This document shows positions 2,034 through 14,047 of a DNA stretch of 53,112 nucleotides, piece after piece. Origin of the DNA: a virus; IMG/VR virus record IMGVR_UViG_3300025816_000016, positions 1 to 53,112 of that record; one strand, 5' to 3'. Every line of letters starts with the position of its first letter. The stretch's first letter is position 1. Position numbers and translations under genes: made by a program. The notes under the pieces were generated by a model. The model was not told the DNA's origin and did not search any database. It saw only the letters and a program-made list of their open reading frames with translations.

Positions 2034-2082
2034 TTATGCACATTTTATGCTATGTTTTGTCGAACCATAGAAGTTATGCTAT
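2034..2082. repeat. DnaA-box-like site plus TTATGCTAT repeats
   Basis: TTATGCACA at 2034-2042 matches the relaxed DnaA-box consensus TTATNCACA. TTATGCTAT follows twice, at 2045-2053 and 2074-2082, the second overlapping the promoter core. The phage encodes two proteins resembling DnaA domain IV, so these could be origin or operator sites. The match is short and could be chance in A/T-rich DNA. Confidence 0.35.
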
Positions 2083-2089
2083 ATCTTTG
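2056..2089 (+). promoter_or_regulatory. Promoter for the early gene cluster
   Basis: A -33-like TTTG (2056-2059) and a -7 core TATCTTTG (2082-2089), separated by 22 bases, precede the first early gene by 42 bases. Both elements match the Bacteroidetes promoter consensus. The following leader is A/T-rich and has no Shine-Dalgarno sequence, as is usual in this phylum. Confidence 0.7.
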
Positions 2090-2131: not shown

Positions 2132-2473
2132 ATGAAAGAGTTAAACGAGTTTTTAGGCAAGTTAGATGCTTGTAAGGTCTTAGGAAGAATCGACAAGAAG
2201 ACCATCACTATCCTTTCTCCACAAGGAGATGAGTTGAGAGTCAGCTACTACATTAAGACTGACGAGAATGGTCTGATGAACGATGACCTTGTGTTCCAAG
2301 CAGTGATGACTATAGGTACGGACAAGAGATGTATGGCGCATTTCGGAGCGACAAATGGCGCGGAGAACCAAGCGATTGTGAGATGGGTACAATCTAAAGC
2401 AAGAGCGATTGAGGATGCGCGAGACGAGGAAGTGAGAGCGATAGATGATGCAGTCAGCCAATGGTTGAGATAG
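2132..2473 (+). CDS. Early protein of 113 aa, function unknown
   Basis: First gene after the early promoter; start ATG at 2132. The sequence alternates beta-strand-like segments (ITILSPQGDELRVSYYIKT) with a central GATNGAENQAIVRW stretch and ends in a highly charged helix (residues about 85-113). It has no membrane segment or Cys cluster and I do not recognise a family. Being first in the operon fits an early, abundantly made host-interaction protein. It is followed by structured RNA element copy 1. Confidence 0.75.
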   Translation: MKELNEFLGKLDACKVLGRIDKKTITILSPQGDELRVSYYIKTDENGLMNDDLVFQAVMTIGTDKRCMAHFGATNGAENQAIVRWVQSKARAIEDARDEEVRAIDDAVSQWLR

Positions 2474-2492
2474 TAACACTGATAGACCCACA

Positions 2493-2572
2493 AGCGGAGT
2501 CAGCGCGTGACTCGGAAACTCCGAGAGATGGATTCGCTCCCATCCTCCGCTCTAATTATTAACTAATCTAAT
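2493..2572 (+). ncRNA. tRNA-shaped structured intergenic element, copy 1
   Basis: A 7-bp closing stem AGCGGAG/CTCCGCT (2493-2499 with 2545-2551) encloses a small hairpin TCA-GCGCG-TGA (2500-2510), an extra hairpin CTCGGA-AAC-TCCGAG (2511-2525), and a 5-bp arm GATGG/CCATC with loop ATTCGCTC (2527-2544). This arm directly abuts the 3' strand of the closing stem, as a T-arm abuts the acceptor stem in tRNA. The closing stem and arm differ from copy 2 by compensatory changes while the loop is identical. A 21-base A/T-rich leader (2552-2572) identical in both copies then leads into the next gene. There is no anticodon arm, so it is not a normal tRNA. Confidence 0.6.
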
Positions 2573-2577
2573 TTAAG

Positions 2578-2793
2578 ATGACTTTACAAGACAAAATTTA
2601 CCACACGAACGAGATGGCTAATGCTATCCAACGCAGAGAGGAGTACTACGATATTGTAGAGACACCTATTACTACTTTCTCTAAAGTAAGACACATCGAG
2701 TTACCTACACCACAAGTTGCGGGTACGATGACACAACAACGTAGCTATGCGATGGGCAAGGCAATGGACATCCTTCAAAACTTATCACTATGA
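2578..2793 (+). CDS. 71-aa early hypothetical protein
   Basis: Start ATG at 2578, six bases after the conserved leader of the upstream RNA element. The protein is polar, with an N-terminal helix-like segment (NEMANAIQRREEYYDIVE) and a middle part rich in Pro and Thr. No motif was recognised. Its stop overlaps the start of the next gene (ATGA), indicating translational coupling. Confidence 0.65.
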   Translation: MTLQDKIYHTNEMANAIQRREEYYDIVETPITTFSKVRHIELPTPQVAGTMTQQRSYAMGKAMDILQNLSL

Positions 2794-3062
2794 ACAAAGC
2801 ACAAAACATAATGCGTCAGATATACGACACATACGCTACGTATGGAGTCTACGCAGTCGAAGGTCAAAGGACTGACACCTACCACGACCATATGCTCTAC
2901 TCATACGAACGTGCTAAGAGTCTATATGCAGAGGCTGAAGGATGTGTTGATGACGAGTATTCGATGGACGAACTATTGGACGCTTTAAACGATGAACTTA
3001 AATACATCAATCACTTCAAGAAGATTCACGTTCTCCTTGCAACAATACCTACAACAATATGA
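2790..3062 (+). CDS. 90-aa early protein, paralogue of the gene at 4783
   Basis: Start ATG at 2790, coupled by a 4-base overlap to the preceding gene. The mostly helical, acidic and aromatic-rich protein shares a pattern with the 84-aa product at 4783: Y-x-D-x-MLY-x-x-E, then EGxC, then a C-terminal HFKKIHVLLATIP resembling HIEKIRILQESIP. The shared order of motifs suggests duplication followed by divergence. The function is unknown; small acidic early proteins of phages often bind host enzymes, but nothing here shows it. Confidence 0.7.
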   Translation: MNKAQNIMRQIYDTYATYGVYAVEGQRTDTYHDHMLYSYERAKSLYAEAEGCVDDEYSMDELLDALNDELKYINHFKKIHVLLATIPTTI

Positions 3063-3079
3063 ATTTAGCATAACCAACA

Positions 3080-3147
3080 AGCAGAGTCAGTGCGTGACTC
3101 GGGGAGATTCGCTCCTCCCCTCTGCTCTAATTATTAACTAATCTAAT
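3080..3147 (+). ncRNA. tRNA-shaped structured intergenic element, copy 2
   Basis: A 7-bp closing stem AGCAGAG/CTCTGCT (3080-3086 with 3120-3126), hairpin TCA-GTGCG-TGA (3087-3097), and a 5-bp arm GGGAG/CTCCC with the same ATTCGCTC loop (3102-3119) that directly abuts the closing stem. It lacks the extra hairpin of copy 1. One pair in the closing stem and three in the arm differ from copy 1 by compensatory changes. The same 21-base leader follows at 3127-3147, before the gene at 3153. Confidence 0.6.
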
Positions 3148-3152
3148 ACACT

Positions 3153-3377
3153 ATGACAAAATCAGAATACAAACACCTTGCAAACCAACGCTCGTTTGAC
3201 TTAGAAAGAGCTATTGAACGGATAGAAAAGCAAGACGCCTTAATCAAAGACCTAAGAGAGACCATCCTTGCATATTCATCAAGAGTAAATATGTATGAAA
3301 AAAAGGTAGGTAAGCTACGCAAAAACTTAGGAGAAGAGATGGACACTATGTCTAAAATTAAAAACCTATTAAAATGA
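3153..3377 (+). CDS. 74-aa coiled-coil early protein
   Basis: Start ATG at 3153, six bases after the conserved leader. Nearly the whole protein is a charged heptad-like helix (residues 10-74; ERAIERIEKQDALIKDLRE and so on) ending in a Lys-rich tail, so a coiled coil is likely. No family was recognised. Its stop overlaps the next ATG (ATGA). Confidence 0.7.
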   Translation: MTKSEYKHLANQRSFDLERAIERIEKQDALIKDLRETILAYSSRVNMYEKKVGKLRKNLGEEMDTMSKIKNLLK

Positions 3378-6893: not shown

Positions 6894-7482
6894 TATTTAC
6901 AAACAACTATCCTCTATCGATATCAAAGGAAAGGTAGAGAAGAAAGGTAAGCACGACTATATGTCTTGGGCTACCGCATGGCATCTAATCAAGAGTGAAT
7001 ACCCACAAGCACAACGTAAGGTATACGAGTGTGAAGAGACTGGGTTAAACTTCTTTACCGATGGAAGGACTGCTTATGTAAAGGTGGGAATAACTATCGA
7101 AGGCATAGAGCATGTAGACTACCTACCTGTTATGGACTTTAGAAACAAGTCTATCCTCTTGGATAAGGTTACCTCTATGGATATCAACACTACGATACAG
7201 AGGTCTACTGCTAAGGCTATAGCTATGCATGGATTAGGACTCAGTCTATGGATCGGTGAGGACTTAAACAAAGTTATCTCTGAGCCTACTCCTACCCCTA
7301 AGAAAGCCACCAAGAAAGAGGCTACCTCTTTAATTTTAGATATAGGTGATGAGAATTGGGCAAAAGTTCTTAAGTTTGTCGCCGCGAATAAAGAACTTGG
7401 GTTACCAAAAATCGTCAAGACTTTGGAGCAGAAGTATAGCATCAAGGCTATGGTAAAAAAGGAATTAAGTAAGCACGTATGA
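6883..7482 (+). CDS. Sak3/DUF1071-like single-strand annealing protein
   Basis: A 199-aa protein whose first 130 residues resemble the DUF1071 (Sak3-type) recombinase family: KHDYMSWATAWHLIK near the N-terminus and STAKAIAMHGLGLSLWIGED at about 105-125. These proteins coat ssDNA and anneal complementary strands in phage recombination. The C-terminal part is a Lys/Pro linker followed by a small helical domain. The adjacent downstream gene is a RecE-like exonuclease (4-base overlap), the standard partner in a two-component recombination system, and an SSB-like gene follows. Confidence 0.8.
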   Translation: MKNNIYKQLSSIDIKGKVEKKGKHDYMSWATAWHLIKSEYPQAQRKVYECEETGLNFFTDGRTAYVKVGITIEGIEHVDYLPVMDFRNKSILLDKVTSMDINTTIQRSTAKAIAMHGLGLSLWIGEDLNKVISEPTPTPKKATKKEATSLILDIGDENWAKVLKFVAANKELGLPKIVKTLEQKYSIKAMVKKELSKHV

Positions 7483-8219
7483 TGAAGGAGATCCTTGCAA
7501 AGCTACAGATAGATGAGCATTATTACGGAGAGTTCGGTCAGCAATGGCTATCCAACTCCAACATATATACTCTTCTCAACGAGCCACACCTCTTTGGTAA
7601 ATCTAAAGAGATGACTAAAGCTATGCTTATCGGGAGGTACTTCCATACCGCTATGCTTGAGCCTGAGAAGCTATCTTCTCCTGAGTTTAGTTCCATAGAC
7701 TCTGGCAGTCGCAACACTAAGATATATAAAGATGCTATCAACGAGCAAGGCGTAGCCTTACGTATGCTTACCAAAGAAAAGGAGGCTACGGACTGCGCTA
7801 TCTCTAAGATGAAAAGCAACTTAGATTTCTATGATGCCATCTACCAAGAGGAGAATACGTTTGAAGTTCCTGCGGTGACAGAGATTATGGGCTTGAAGTG
7901 GAAGGGTAAGGCAGATATAGTTACGCCTGATATCCTTATCGATCTCAAGACCACCTCCAATATCCGCGACTTCAAATACTCAGCGCGTAAATACAACTAC
8001 GATAGCCAAGCGTATATCTATCAGCAGTTGTTTGATAAACCTTTGGTGTTCTATGTGGTAGATAAACTCAGCCTTCAGTTAGGCGTCTTCTATCCTTCTG
8101 AGAACTTCCTTGCTAATGGTAGGGATAAGATTGAGAGGGCTATGGAGGTATACAACACCTACTTCGCTGAGGGTTCAACAATAAGTATCGATGATTACAT
8201 TCATAAAGAAACTCTTTAA
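7479..8219 (+). CDS. RecE/YqaJ-like PD-(D/E)XK exonuclease
   Basis: A 246-aa nuclease of the exodeoxyribonuclease VIII type (DUF3799-like). It has the helical IGRYFHTAMLEPEKL motif at about 51-65, then the catalytic GKADIVTPD (Asp146) and LIDLKTT (Asp155, Lys157), and a QAYIYQQL helix. All catalytic residues appear present. It would resect dsDNA ends to give ssDNA for the Sak3-like protein upstream. Start ATG overlaps the upstream stop by 4 bases. Confidence 0.85.
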   Translation: MMKEILAKLQIDEHYYGEFGQQWLSNSNIYTLLNEPHLFGKSKEMTKAMLIGRYFHTAMLEPEKLSSPEFSSIDSGSRNTKIYKDAINEQGVALRMLTKEKEATDCAISKMKSNLDFYDAIYQEENTFEVPAVTEIMGLKWKGKADIVTPDILIDLKTTSNIRDFKYSARKYNYDSQAYIYQQLFDKPLVFYVVDKLSLQLGVFYPSENFLANGRDKIERAMEVYNTYFAEGSTISIDDYIHKETL

Positions 8220-8854: not shown

Positions 8855-11269
8855 ATGTCAAAAGTTACCATATTCAAAGACATTAAGGATACCGAGCAGC
8901 CTTTCTACCGGGAGGCGGTAGTTATCCTAAGCAGAATTAAAGAAGGATCAAGTAAGGACTTGGTTAAAAAGATCCGACAAGAGAAAGATAAGTCGGCAAG
9001 GAATTTATTAAAGCAGTCTCTTCCCGCTATATGTTTCAGTGGGATGTTCACCAAGAGAACGGACTCTGCTATATCAGAACATAGTGGTTTAATATGTCTT
9101 GACTTTGATGGGTACAAGACTAATAAAGATATGCTTCAAGAGAAGGAGAGGCTGTCTAAGGACAAGCACGTATACTCTGTGTTTATTTCTCCAAGCGGCA
9201 ATGGGTTAAAGGCGGTGGTAAAGATTCCAACAGAGGTTGATGACCATAAAAAATACTTTAACTCTTTAGAGGTTCATTTCAACAGCCCAAACTTTGATAA
9301 GACTTCAAAGAATATATCGAGGGTGTGTTATGAATCTTACGACCCACTTATTTATATCAACGAGCTATCCAGTGTATGGGAAAAGATTGAGGACGTTGAA
9401 TACCAGGAGGTAGTGAAGTATAAAGATCGCCCTACTATACCTATCACTAACGAGAATAAAATTGTAGAGATCCTTCTCAAGTGGTGGGATAAGAAGTATG
9501 GTATGACAGATGGAGAACGTAACAACAACGTATACGTATTGGCTTCGGCATTCAATGACTTCGGGGTGAATCAAAACTTAGCCGAGTATGTCATGGGTAA
9601 CTACGCTACTGAAGATTTCCCTTTGGATGAGATCCTTAGAACCATCTCCTCTGCCTACTCACATAAACAAAACTTCGGCACTAAGTATTACGAGGATGAG
9701 GATAAGGTCAACCATATAAAACAAAAGTTCCGTCAAGGTGTCAGCAAGAAAGAATTGAAGGAGCAGTTGGAGAAGGAAGATATATTGGTTGATGATCTCG
9801 AGGGCGTTCTTCTTAGGATAGAGGACGAGAACGCTAAGCAAAAGTTCTGGACCAAGTCAGAGAAGGGTGCTATAAAAATTATACATATAGATTTTAAAAA
9901 ATTCTTAGAGGAGAATGGGTTCTATAAATTCAACCCGGAGGGTAGTAAGAACTATGTCTTTGTAAAGGTTACCAACAACCTTATCGACCACACTTCAGAG
10001 AAAGAGATAAAAGATTTTATCCTCAGCTATCTCTTGGAAGAGGATGATACCAGTATATACAACCACTTCGCTGACCAGACCCGATACTTCCGAGAGGAGT
10101 TTCTCACACTGCTATCTTCTATAGACGTCTTCTTTATTGAGGACACCCTCGATGCTTCTTATCTTTACTACAGAAATTGCGCTGTTAAAATTACTAAAGA
10201 CGAGGTCACCCCTATAGACTATATAGATTTAGGGGGGTACGTATGGAAGGATCATGTCATAGACAGGAACTTTACCATATGCGATGTGATTGCTTGTGAT
10301 TTTCAAACCTTTGTGAGCAACGTCTCGGGAGGTGATGATAAGAGGACTCGTTCTTTTTTCTCTACCATAGGGTACTTGCTTCATGGATACAAGAATCTCT
10401 CCTACTGTCCAGCCGTTATACTAAACGATGAGGTTATCTCGGAGAACGGAGACCCAGAGGGGGGGACAGGTAAGGGATTGTTAATGAAGGGCATCTCGGA
10501 GATGAAGAAGCTGGTGGTGATAGATGGAAAGTCTTTTGATTTCTCTAAGTCTTTTGCCTACCAGTTGGTTTCTGCTGACACTCAGATACTGTGCTTCGAT
10601 GACGTCAAAAAGTTCTTTGATTTCGAGAGGTTGTTCAGTGTGGTTACAGAGGGTTTAACTTTAGAAAAGAAGAACAAGGACGCTATCAAGATTCCTTTCA
10701 GTAAATCCCCGAAGGTAGCTATCACTACCAACTATATAATTAAAGGCAGTGGAAACTCTTTTCAGCGCAGGAAGTGGGAGTTAGAACTCTCGCAGCACTA
10801 CACTAAAGAGTTCACCCCTTTGGTTGAGTTTGGGAAACATTTCTTTGGAGAGTGGGATGATAACGAGTGGTGCCAGTTCGATAACTTTATGATCAGCTGC
10901 CTTCAGTTATACTTAGAGAAAGGTTTACTAAGGAGTGAGTTTAAAAACAAGGATTATAAAACATTCTTGCATGCTACTTCAACTGATTTTGTAGAGTGGT
11001 GTGATATTAAAGACGACTCTAATAGTTTTCTTGTTGAGAATGAAATCGTTCACGTTAACACGTTATACTACAACTTCATAGAGGAGTACCCCGACTACGG
11101 TCCTCGATCCAAGATGGCTATCTCACGCCAGCATTTCTTCAAAAACTTAGTGGCTTACAATGTATATAAGTACAAGTGTAAACCCTTTAGCCCTGTTAGA
11201 GATTCAATAGGTAAAAGGATACAGTTTGTAAACGCAAGTTTCTATCTTGAACAAGGGAAACTACTATGA
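8855..11269 (+). CDS. VirE-N/BT4734-type primase-helicase
   Basis: An 804-aa replication protein. Residues about 1-175 resemble the VirE-N/BT4734-like domain of Bacteroidetes elements (SGLICLDFDGYKT, FISPSGNGLKAVVKIP), an archaeo-eukaryotic-type primase module. A helical PriCT-like middle follows. The C-terminal half is an SF3-like helicase with Walker A GDPEGGTGKG at 532-541 (Lys540), LCFDDV as Walker B about 45 residues later, and a KVAITTNY sensor segment near 620. It would unwind and prime phage DNA. Start ATG at 8855; its stop overlaps the SF2 helicase start by 4 bases. Confidence 0.85.
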   Translation: MSKVTIFKDIKDTEQPFYREAVVILSRIKEGSSKDLVKKIRQEKDKSARNLLKQSLPAICFSGMFTKRTDSAISEHSGLICLDFDGYKTNKDMLQEKERLSKDKHVYSVFISPSGNGLKAVVKIPTEVDDHKKYFNSLEVHFNSPNFDKTSKNISRVCYESYDPLIYINELSSVWEKIEDVEYQEVVKYKDRPTIPITNENKIVEILLKWWDKKYGMTDGERNNNVYVLASAFNDFGVNQNLAEYVMGNYATEDFPLDEILRTISSAYSHKQNFGTKYYEDEDKVNHIKQKFRQGVSKKELKEQLEKEDILVDDLEGVLLRIEDENAKQKFWTKSEKGAIKIIHIDFKKFLEENGFYKFNPEGSKNYVFVKVTNNLIDHTSEKEIKDFILSYLLEEDDTSIYNHFADQTRYFREEFLTLLSSIDVFFIEDTLDASYLYYRNCAVKITKDEVTPIDYIDLGGYVWKDHVIDRNFTICDVIACDFQTFVSNVSGGDDKRTRSFFSTIGYLLHGYKNLSYCPAVILNDEVISENGDPEGGTGKGLLMKGISEMKKLVVIDGKSFDFSKSFAYQLVSADTQILCFDDVKKFFDFERLFSVVTEGLTLEKKNKDAIKIPFSKSPKVAITTNYIIKGSGNSFQRRKWELELSQHYTKEFTPLVEFGKHFFGEWDDNEWCQFDNFMISCLQLYLEKGLLRSEFKNKDYKTFLHATSTDFVEWCDIKDDSNSFLVENEIVHVNTLYYNFIEEYPDYGPRSKMAISRQHFFKNLVAYNVYKYKCKPFSPVRDSIGKRIQFVNASFYLEQGKLL

Positions 11270-13973: not shown

Positions 13974-14047
13974 GGTCTCGTAGCTCAACTGGATAGAGCA
14001 CCTCCCTTCTAAGGAGGCGGTTTGGGGTTCGAATCCCTGCGGGATCA
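13974..14047 (+). tRNA. tRNA-Arg (anticodon TCT)
   Basis: Acceptor stem GGTCTCG/CGGGATC (with G-U pairs), D-arm GCTC...GAGC, anticodon stem CCTCC/GGAGG with loop CTTCTAA, giving anticodon TCT at 14008-14010, and T-arm with TTCGAAT. The discriminator is A14047 and CCA is not encoded. It reads AGA/AGG, codons that are frequent in this phage's genes. Confidence 0.93.

Follow-up and report, generated by a model that had tools for sequence, protein, structure and literature searches.

What is the same small folded RNA doing twice among the first genes of a phage operon, each time shortly before a start codon? The question is raised by a virus record of 53,112 bases, which was analysed over its whole length (the window). 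The large terminase encoded in it shows 74% identity to the MW202828 protein (Podoviridae sp. from Manatee Spring) and 45% identity to the terminases of Flavobacterium elemo phages, and the minus-strand gene at 1-1000 is taken to be groEL from reading and from synteny with the groEL annotated in those phages. Both copies of the element sit where the rightward early operon begins, an operon whose small genes belong to no known family. Tandem GGCTC repeats (ggctcggctcggctcgg...) at 1790-1830 lie in the gap that separates the leftward from the rightward gene block. The features that concern us, in window coordinates, are:

2082-2089, plus strand: TATCTTTG, putative Bacteroidota-type -7 box upstream of the operon, called on the consensus TAnnTTTG
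2132-2473, plus strand: early gene 1, 113 aa, no known family, upstream of copy 1
2472-2488, plus strand: probable hammerhead 5' remnant directly upstream of copy 1, AGTAACACTGAT, 12 nt exact
2493-2551, plus strand: element copy 1 (covariance model R1, 75.4 bits)
2493-2499/2545-2551: copy 1 P1, 7 bp
2500-2501/2509-2510: copy 1 P2, TC/GA
2502-2508: copy 1 loop 2, AGCGCGT
2511-2526: copy 1 P2-P3 linker
2511-2525, plus strand: extra hairpin in the copy 1 linker, CTCGGA-AAC-TCCGAG
2527-2531/2540-2544: copy 1 P3, GATGG/CCATC
2532-2539: copy 1 loop 3, ATTCGCTC
2551-2572, plus strand: A/T-rich leader 3' of copy 1, TCTAATTATTAACTAATCTAAT, with the start codon at 2578
2578-2793, plus strand: early gene after copy 1, 71 aa, MTLQDKI...
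2790-3062, plus strand: early gene upstream of copy 2, 90 aa
3080-3126, plus strand: element copy 2 (covariance model R1, 88 bits)
3080-3086/3120-3126: copy 2 P1, 7 bp
3087-3088/3096-3097: copy 2 P2
3089-3095: copy 2 loop 2, AGTGCGT
3098-3101: copy 2 linker, CTCG
3102-3106/3115-3119: copy 2 P3, GGGAG/CTCCC
3107-3114: copy 2 loop 3, ATTCGCTC
3126-3147, plus strand: A/T-rich leader 3' of copy 2, TCTAATTATTAACTAATCTAAT, with the start codon at 3153
3153-3377, plus strand: early gene after copy 2, 74 aa, MTKSEYK...

The two copies share a 7-bp closing stem (P1), a small hairpin (P2) and a 5-bp arm (P3) with an 8-base loop, just as a preliminary description of this DNA had reported, and they differ by the four paired substitutions given there, a G-C to A-U change in P1 and three changes in P3. 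The leader common to both copies is identical over 22 bases, one more than the 21 originally given, where 0.01 matches are expected by chance. Each copy folds 2.9-3.0 SD better than its dinucleotide shuffles. The extra hairpin reported for copy 1 was found within the P2-P3 linker and is absent from the remaining 12 of the 13 copies now known.

Pattern scans of IMG/VR located the element in seven further contigs besides the window, among them three pairs of near duplicates at the element (G002/G004, G003/G005 and G006/G007), and a covariance model built from 12 copies recovered one additional copy in G002 at 65.7 bits. The family thus comprises 13 copies (11 distinct cores) from six non-redundant IMG/VR phages, all of them derived from assembled virus contigs of one group of Bacteroidota phages. 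About 50 loci returned by loose patterns contained the full fold only on contigs already known, and a pattern match in a Prevotellaceae genome contig (L010) was rejected as a chance hit in apparently coding sequence. Model R1 found no match in 395 Bacteroidota genomes, a set that holds no positive control, and no near-identical DNA was found in named phages or plasmids.

The common fold consists of P1 and P3, constant in length at 7 and 5 bp, and a short P2. Standard pairs fill 182 of 182 cells of P1, P2 and P3 in the 13 copies, and 8 of the 14 pairs show changes on both sides; these counts come from a hand-checked table verified against the DNA, the MAFFT alignment having misplaced P3 of copy 1. 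In the 12-row alignment, 168 of 168 pair cells are intact and both-side changes again occur in 8 of 14 pairs, against a shuffle mean of 4.9; the covariation score of these 12 copies is 0.551, compared with 0.150 +/- 0.031 after shuffling and at most 0.115 with slid partners. The suggestion that the structure is under selection is borne out by this covarying family in related phages, in which the pairing is conserved. Loop 2 (AGYGCGY) and loop 3 (ATTCGCYY) are found in every copy and stay near-invariant while P3 varies between copies at 49% of pairs. At the foot of P1 (AAGC/GCTC), the outer three pairs and the flanking bases are unchanged in 13 of 13 copies. The linker begins with CTCG in 11 of 13 copies (the insert follows in copy 1), with CCTCG in copy G006b and with CGAG in copy G002c. 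Loops 2 and 3 can form three G-C pairs, GCG with CGC; as these positions do not vary, a contact between the loops stays an inference. The GAG of P1 could alternatively pair with the CTC of the P2-P3 linker. The resulting fold (longer P2, 4-bp P1), about equally paired in most copies and weakened in two, was set aside; G002c and G006b, where this pairing is weakened, retain the 7-bp P1 through a compensated A-U to U-A change.

We compared the element with known RNA classes. No Rfam family, ribozyme models included, matched it at gathering or permissive thresholds (E 5 across 2440-3200), and ARAGORN called a tRNA-Arg at 13974 as the only tRNA in the window, with nothing at the element. Where an intrinsic terminator has a GC hairpin and then a T run, the element has P1 and then CTAATTATT. 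Together with reading of the sequence, these searches uphold the earlier exclusion of standard tRNAs, terminators and known riboswitches, and extend it to the known Rfam families. The label "tRNA-shaped" held in part. All 13 copies have the tRNA-type 7-bp acceptor and 5-bp T arm with no linker on the 3' strand, which would give a 12-bp (7+5) stack if P1 stacks on P3, and they have a side arm and a possible loop-loop contact, as tRNAs and tRNA-like substrates of RNase P or RNase Z do. Unlike tRNA, however, they lack the GG of a D-loop and the canonical 7-nt T-loop TTCRANY (8-nt ATTCGCYY in all copies), and 12 of 13 have no anticodon arm. The element is a small, strongly conserved three-armed RNA that fits none of the families searched and may have been described elsewhere.

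Its position in the phage genomes bears on its role. All copies lie on the coding strand, and almost all fall between genes of the early operon next to groEL, with five early junctions occupied in G001. Junctions ahead of orthologous genes in the sister phages G002-G005 are occupied instead by type I hammerheads with a perfect core. The best six match RF00163 at 27-31 bits, against an Rfam curated cut-off of 34, with E values of 6.6e-8 to 3e-6 per contig; stems II and III show compensated pair changes, and one hammerhead each in G002 and G004 scores 13.9 bits in Rfam and has a full core by inspection. Two orthologous gene families have the element upstream in some phages and a hammerhead in others. 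The gene MNDF(R/K)VVNCGQRD follows the element in G001, whereas its G003/G005 orthologues (66/73 identical) and its G002/G004 homologues (48/73) follow a hammerhead; the gene MTLQD... follows a hammerhead in G002/G004 (48/69 identical to the window), but in the window, G001 and G003 it comes after the element. All but two of the elements end 25-28 nt before the ATG and the hammerheads end 23-27 nt before it, and the leaders after both are similar in sequence. Along the G002 operon, the order at successive junctions is hammerhead, hammerhead, element, hammerhead, element, tRNA-like fold, element, tRNA-like fold.

Short matches upstream of three copies suggest that elements replaced hammerheads in place. 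In the probable remnant before copy 1, AGTAACACTGAT is followed by AGACC with one base missing, its counterpart being the 5' part of a hammerhead in L006; copies G001a and G001b each have a 9-nt hammerhead 5' match upstream. Matches of these lengths (12, 9 and 9 nt) occur at 0.14-0.4% of control positions, the 0.4% for matches of at least 9 nt including the hammerheads themselves, and the remnants of copy 1 and G001a are not independent, both following homologous genes.

Hammerheads in phages are known to border single genes, and a proposed function is the cutting of long transcripts into mRNAs the length of a gene; cleavage of phage hammerhead clusters has been demonstrated in vitro (PMC3088659). 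Since the element takes the hammerheads' place at hammerhead spacing, the same cut is most likely here, and by this analogy we consider it probable that the element is a cis-acting device for cutting mRNA between cistrons and has taken over this task from the hammerhead. After cleavage, a type I hammerhead remains on the upstream fragment, so an equivalent cut would be placed 3' of the element, and the 5' cut of RNase P would not be equivalent. The polycistronic early transcript would be cut at or near the element, which would provide the downstream gene with its own mRNA and a short unstructured A/U-rich leader of ~25-28 nt and leave the upstream fragment ending in a folded structure. In the compact fold that we envisage, P1 would stack on P3, P2 would fold back and loop 2 would contact loop 3 via GCG/CGC, holding the conserved loop nucleotides in place. 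Among the roles first offered, the hammerheads at the equivalent junctions of sister phages favour mRNA processing over translation or stability alone.

For a cleavage device we count the exchange, the ATG spacing, the 5' remnants, the single orientation, the intergenic placement and the near-invariant loops. Against it stand the lack of similarity to any known ribozyme, the invariant outer P1 pairs, which are unexpected in a ribozyme whose core is centred on the junction, the junctions of MW202828 (the closest terminase), which carry neither element nor hammerhead, and the placement of two copies. G002c lies 89 nt from its ATG with a promoter-like TATCTTTA in between, and G006b lies 46 nt from its ATG and directly follows a promoter-like box, TATATTTG. 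Because G006b follows a promoter and G002c precedes one, not every copy separates two cistrons; given its upstream box, G006b is probably at the very 5' end of its transcript. A GTTCACCAAGTGAAC inverted repeat is present between that element and the ATG (L011:10190-10300).

If the transcript is cut, our leading guess for the catalyst, a tentative one placed ahead of host tRNA enzymes, is the element itself. It may be a new class of small self-cleaving ribozyme, a three-way junction of ~48 nt with kissing loops and internal phosphoester transfer, which Bacteroidota phages would use interchangeably with hammerheads, and perhaps also with tRNA-like processing sites, to dissect the early transcript gene by gene. 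Such a ribozyme would account for a device that replaces hammerheads before orthologous genes at equal spacing, carries two near-invariant loops on freely varying stems and has no Rfam match. The route of discovery has precedent: sites common to several ribozyme classes are an accepted hunting ground for new classes, and pistol, hatchet and twister-sister came from sites shared with known ribozymes, by the same logic of seeking conserved RNA where ribozymes occur (PMC10085705). With the type I hammerheads of phage operons (RF00163) the element shares junctions, strand, ATG spacing and a three-way junction; unlike them it has no CUGANGA (absent from 13 of 13 copies), GAA or UH cleavage site, and unlike the known classes it is matched by no Rfam ribozyme model. 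The theta (HDV-like) ribozymes of gut phages are likewise small phage ribozymes in RNA processing (PMC10879173), but they have an HDV-like fold and lie beside tRNAs, whereas the element differs in fold and place. The invariant outer P1 pairs, the lengths of P1 and P3 fixed at 7 and 5 and a linker CTCG that is not fully conserved (CGAG in G002c) argue against self-cleavage. If the element does cut itself, it adds one class to the few natural self-cleaving ribozymes, of which nine are well studied and one is proposed (PMC10085705).

Cleavage by host enzymes is the other sub-case, which we regard as possible but doubtful. Here P1 and P3 would copy the 12-bp acceptor/T stack of a tRNA, and the host would cut 3' of P1 with RNase Z or 5' of it with RNase P. 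The constant 7+5 bp stack with no 3'-strand linker, the side arm with its possible loop-loop contact, the conserved end of P1, the UUCG in loop 3 and the absence of CCA after P1 are all consistent with such a mimic, as are the larger tRNA-like structures, with canonical T-loops, that occupy other junctions in the same operons. The details fit less well: the A58 of the T-loop consensus is missing from loop 3, which is 8 nt long (ATTCGCYY), loop 2 contains no GG, P1 and P2 adjoin with no spacer, and ARAGORN and the Rfam tRNA models give no match even at E 5. Should host tRNA enzymes cut, tRNA mimics and ribozymes would be interchangeable tools of these phages for one and the same step. Our confidence in cleavage is made up of these two sub-cases, the larger share going to self-cutting; what is left, less than that for cleavage, goes to uncut, protein-binding and other readings.

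That the RNA stays uncut, and shields the downstream leader from the sequence before it, stops ribosomes from reading through or guards the ends of mRNAs, seems unlikely to us. The fixed distance to the ATG, the copy with which a promoter-driven transcript probably begins and the short palindromes 16-23 nt before several ATGs in another related phage would suit such a role, but a mere insulator needs no invariant loops on freely varying stems, and the exchange with a perfect hammerhead core is left unexplained. The element might instead be bound by a phage or host protein, as the site of a translation repressor or antiterminator or as a packaging signal, and invariant loops and many copies per operon would suit this; it is improbable in our view, as it gives no reason for the hammerhead exchange, and element and hammerhead occur next to each other within one operon. 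A feature of the DNA itself, be it a mobile repeat, a recombination site or an operator, which copies repeated within one genome might suggest, is very improbable given compensatory pair changes with the loops kept, one orientation relative to transcription and positions tied to start codons.

With hammerheads, the element and tRNA-like folds at successive junctions, the purpose of phage hammerheads becomes directly testable, and the question these operons pose is which feature is common to all junctions. The tRNA-like folds of G002 lie at L090:5653-5739, 7396-7508 and 10526-10620, with homologues in L091 (G001) and, for the second, also in L092 (G003). They have canonical T-loops (GGTTCGACTCC/GGTTCGATTCC) and no normal anticodon arm, and none was called in the fetched loci scanned with ARAGORN. 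The next ATG lies 18-29 nt beyond the end of each of the first two, and the first gives a weak tRNA-Sec match (31.8 bits against a cut-off of 47). A different junction structure, at L090:9011-9097 and on the reverse complement of L091 at 8985-9076, has a covarying outer stem, a conserved core (CGTGTTTACGGCAAAACCT...CGTTAA.CAGCGAGGTTTGG) and no Rfam match; it may be one more processing device, or else a terminator. In MW202828.1 (43745-55154; L096, L097), the early region contains 14 identical copies of a perfect palindrome, GTGTCGTTAACGACAC, several of them 16-23 nt before a start codon and others within genes, which looks like a DNA operator or hairpin signal. Other phages also carry two or more junction hammerheads (L065 and L066, also L064, L067, L068 and L069), and in L065 a permuted type II-like hammerhead (GCGAAACGCC...GGCGTC...CTGATGAGC) lies between two type I copies.
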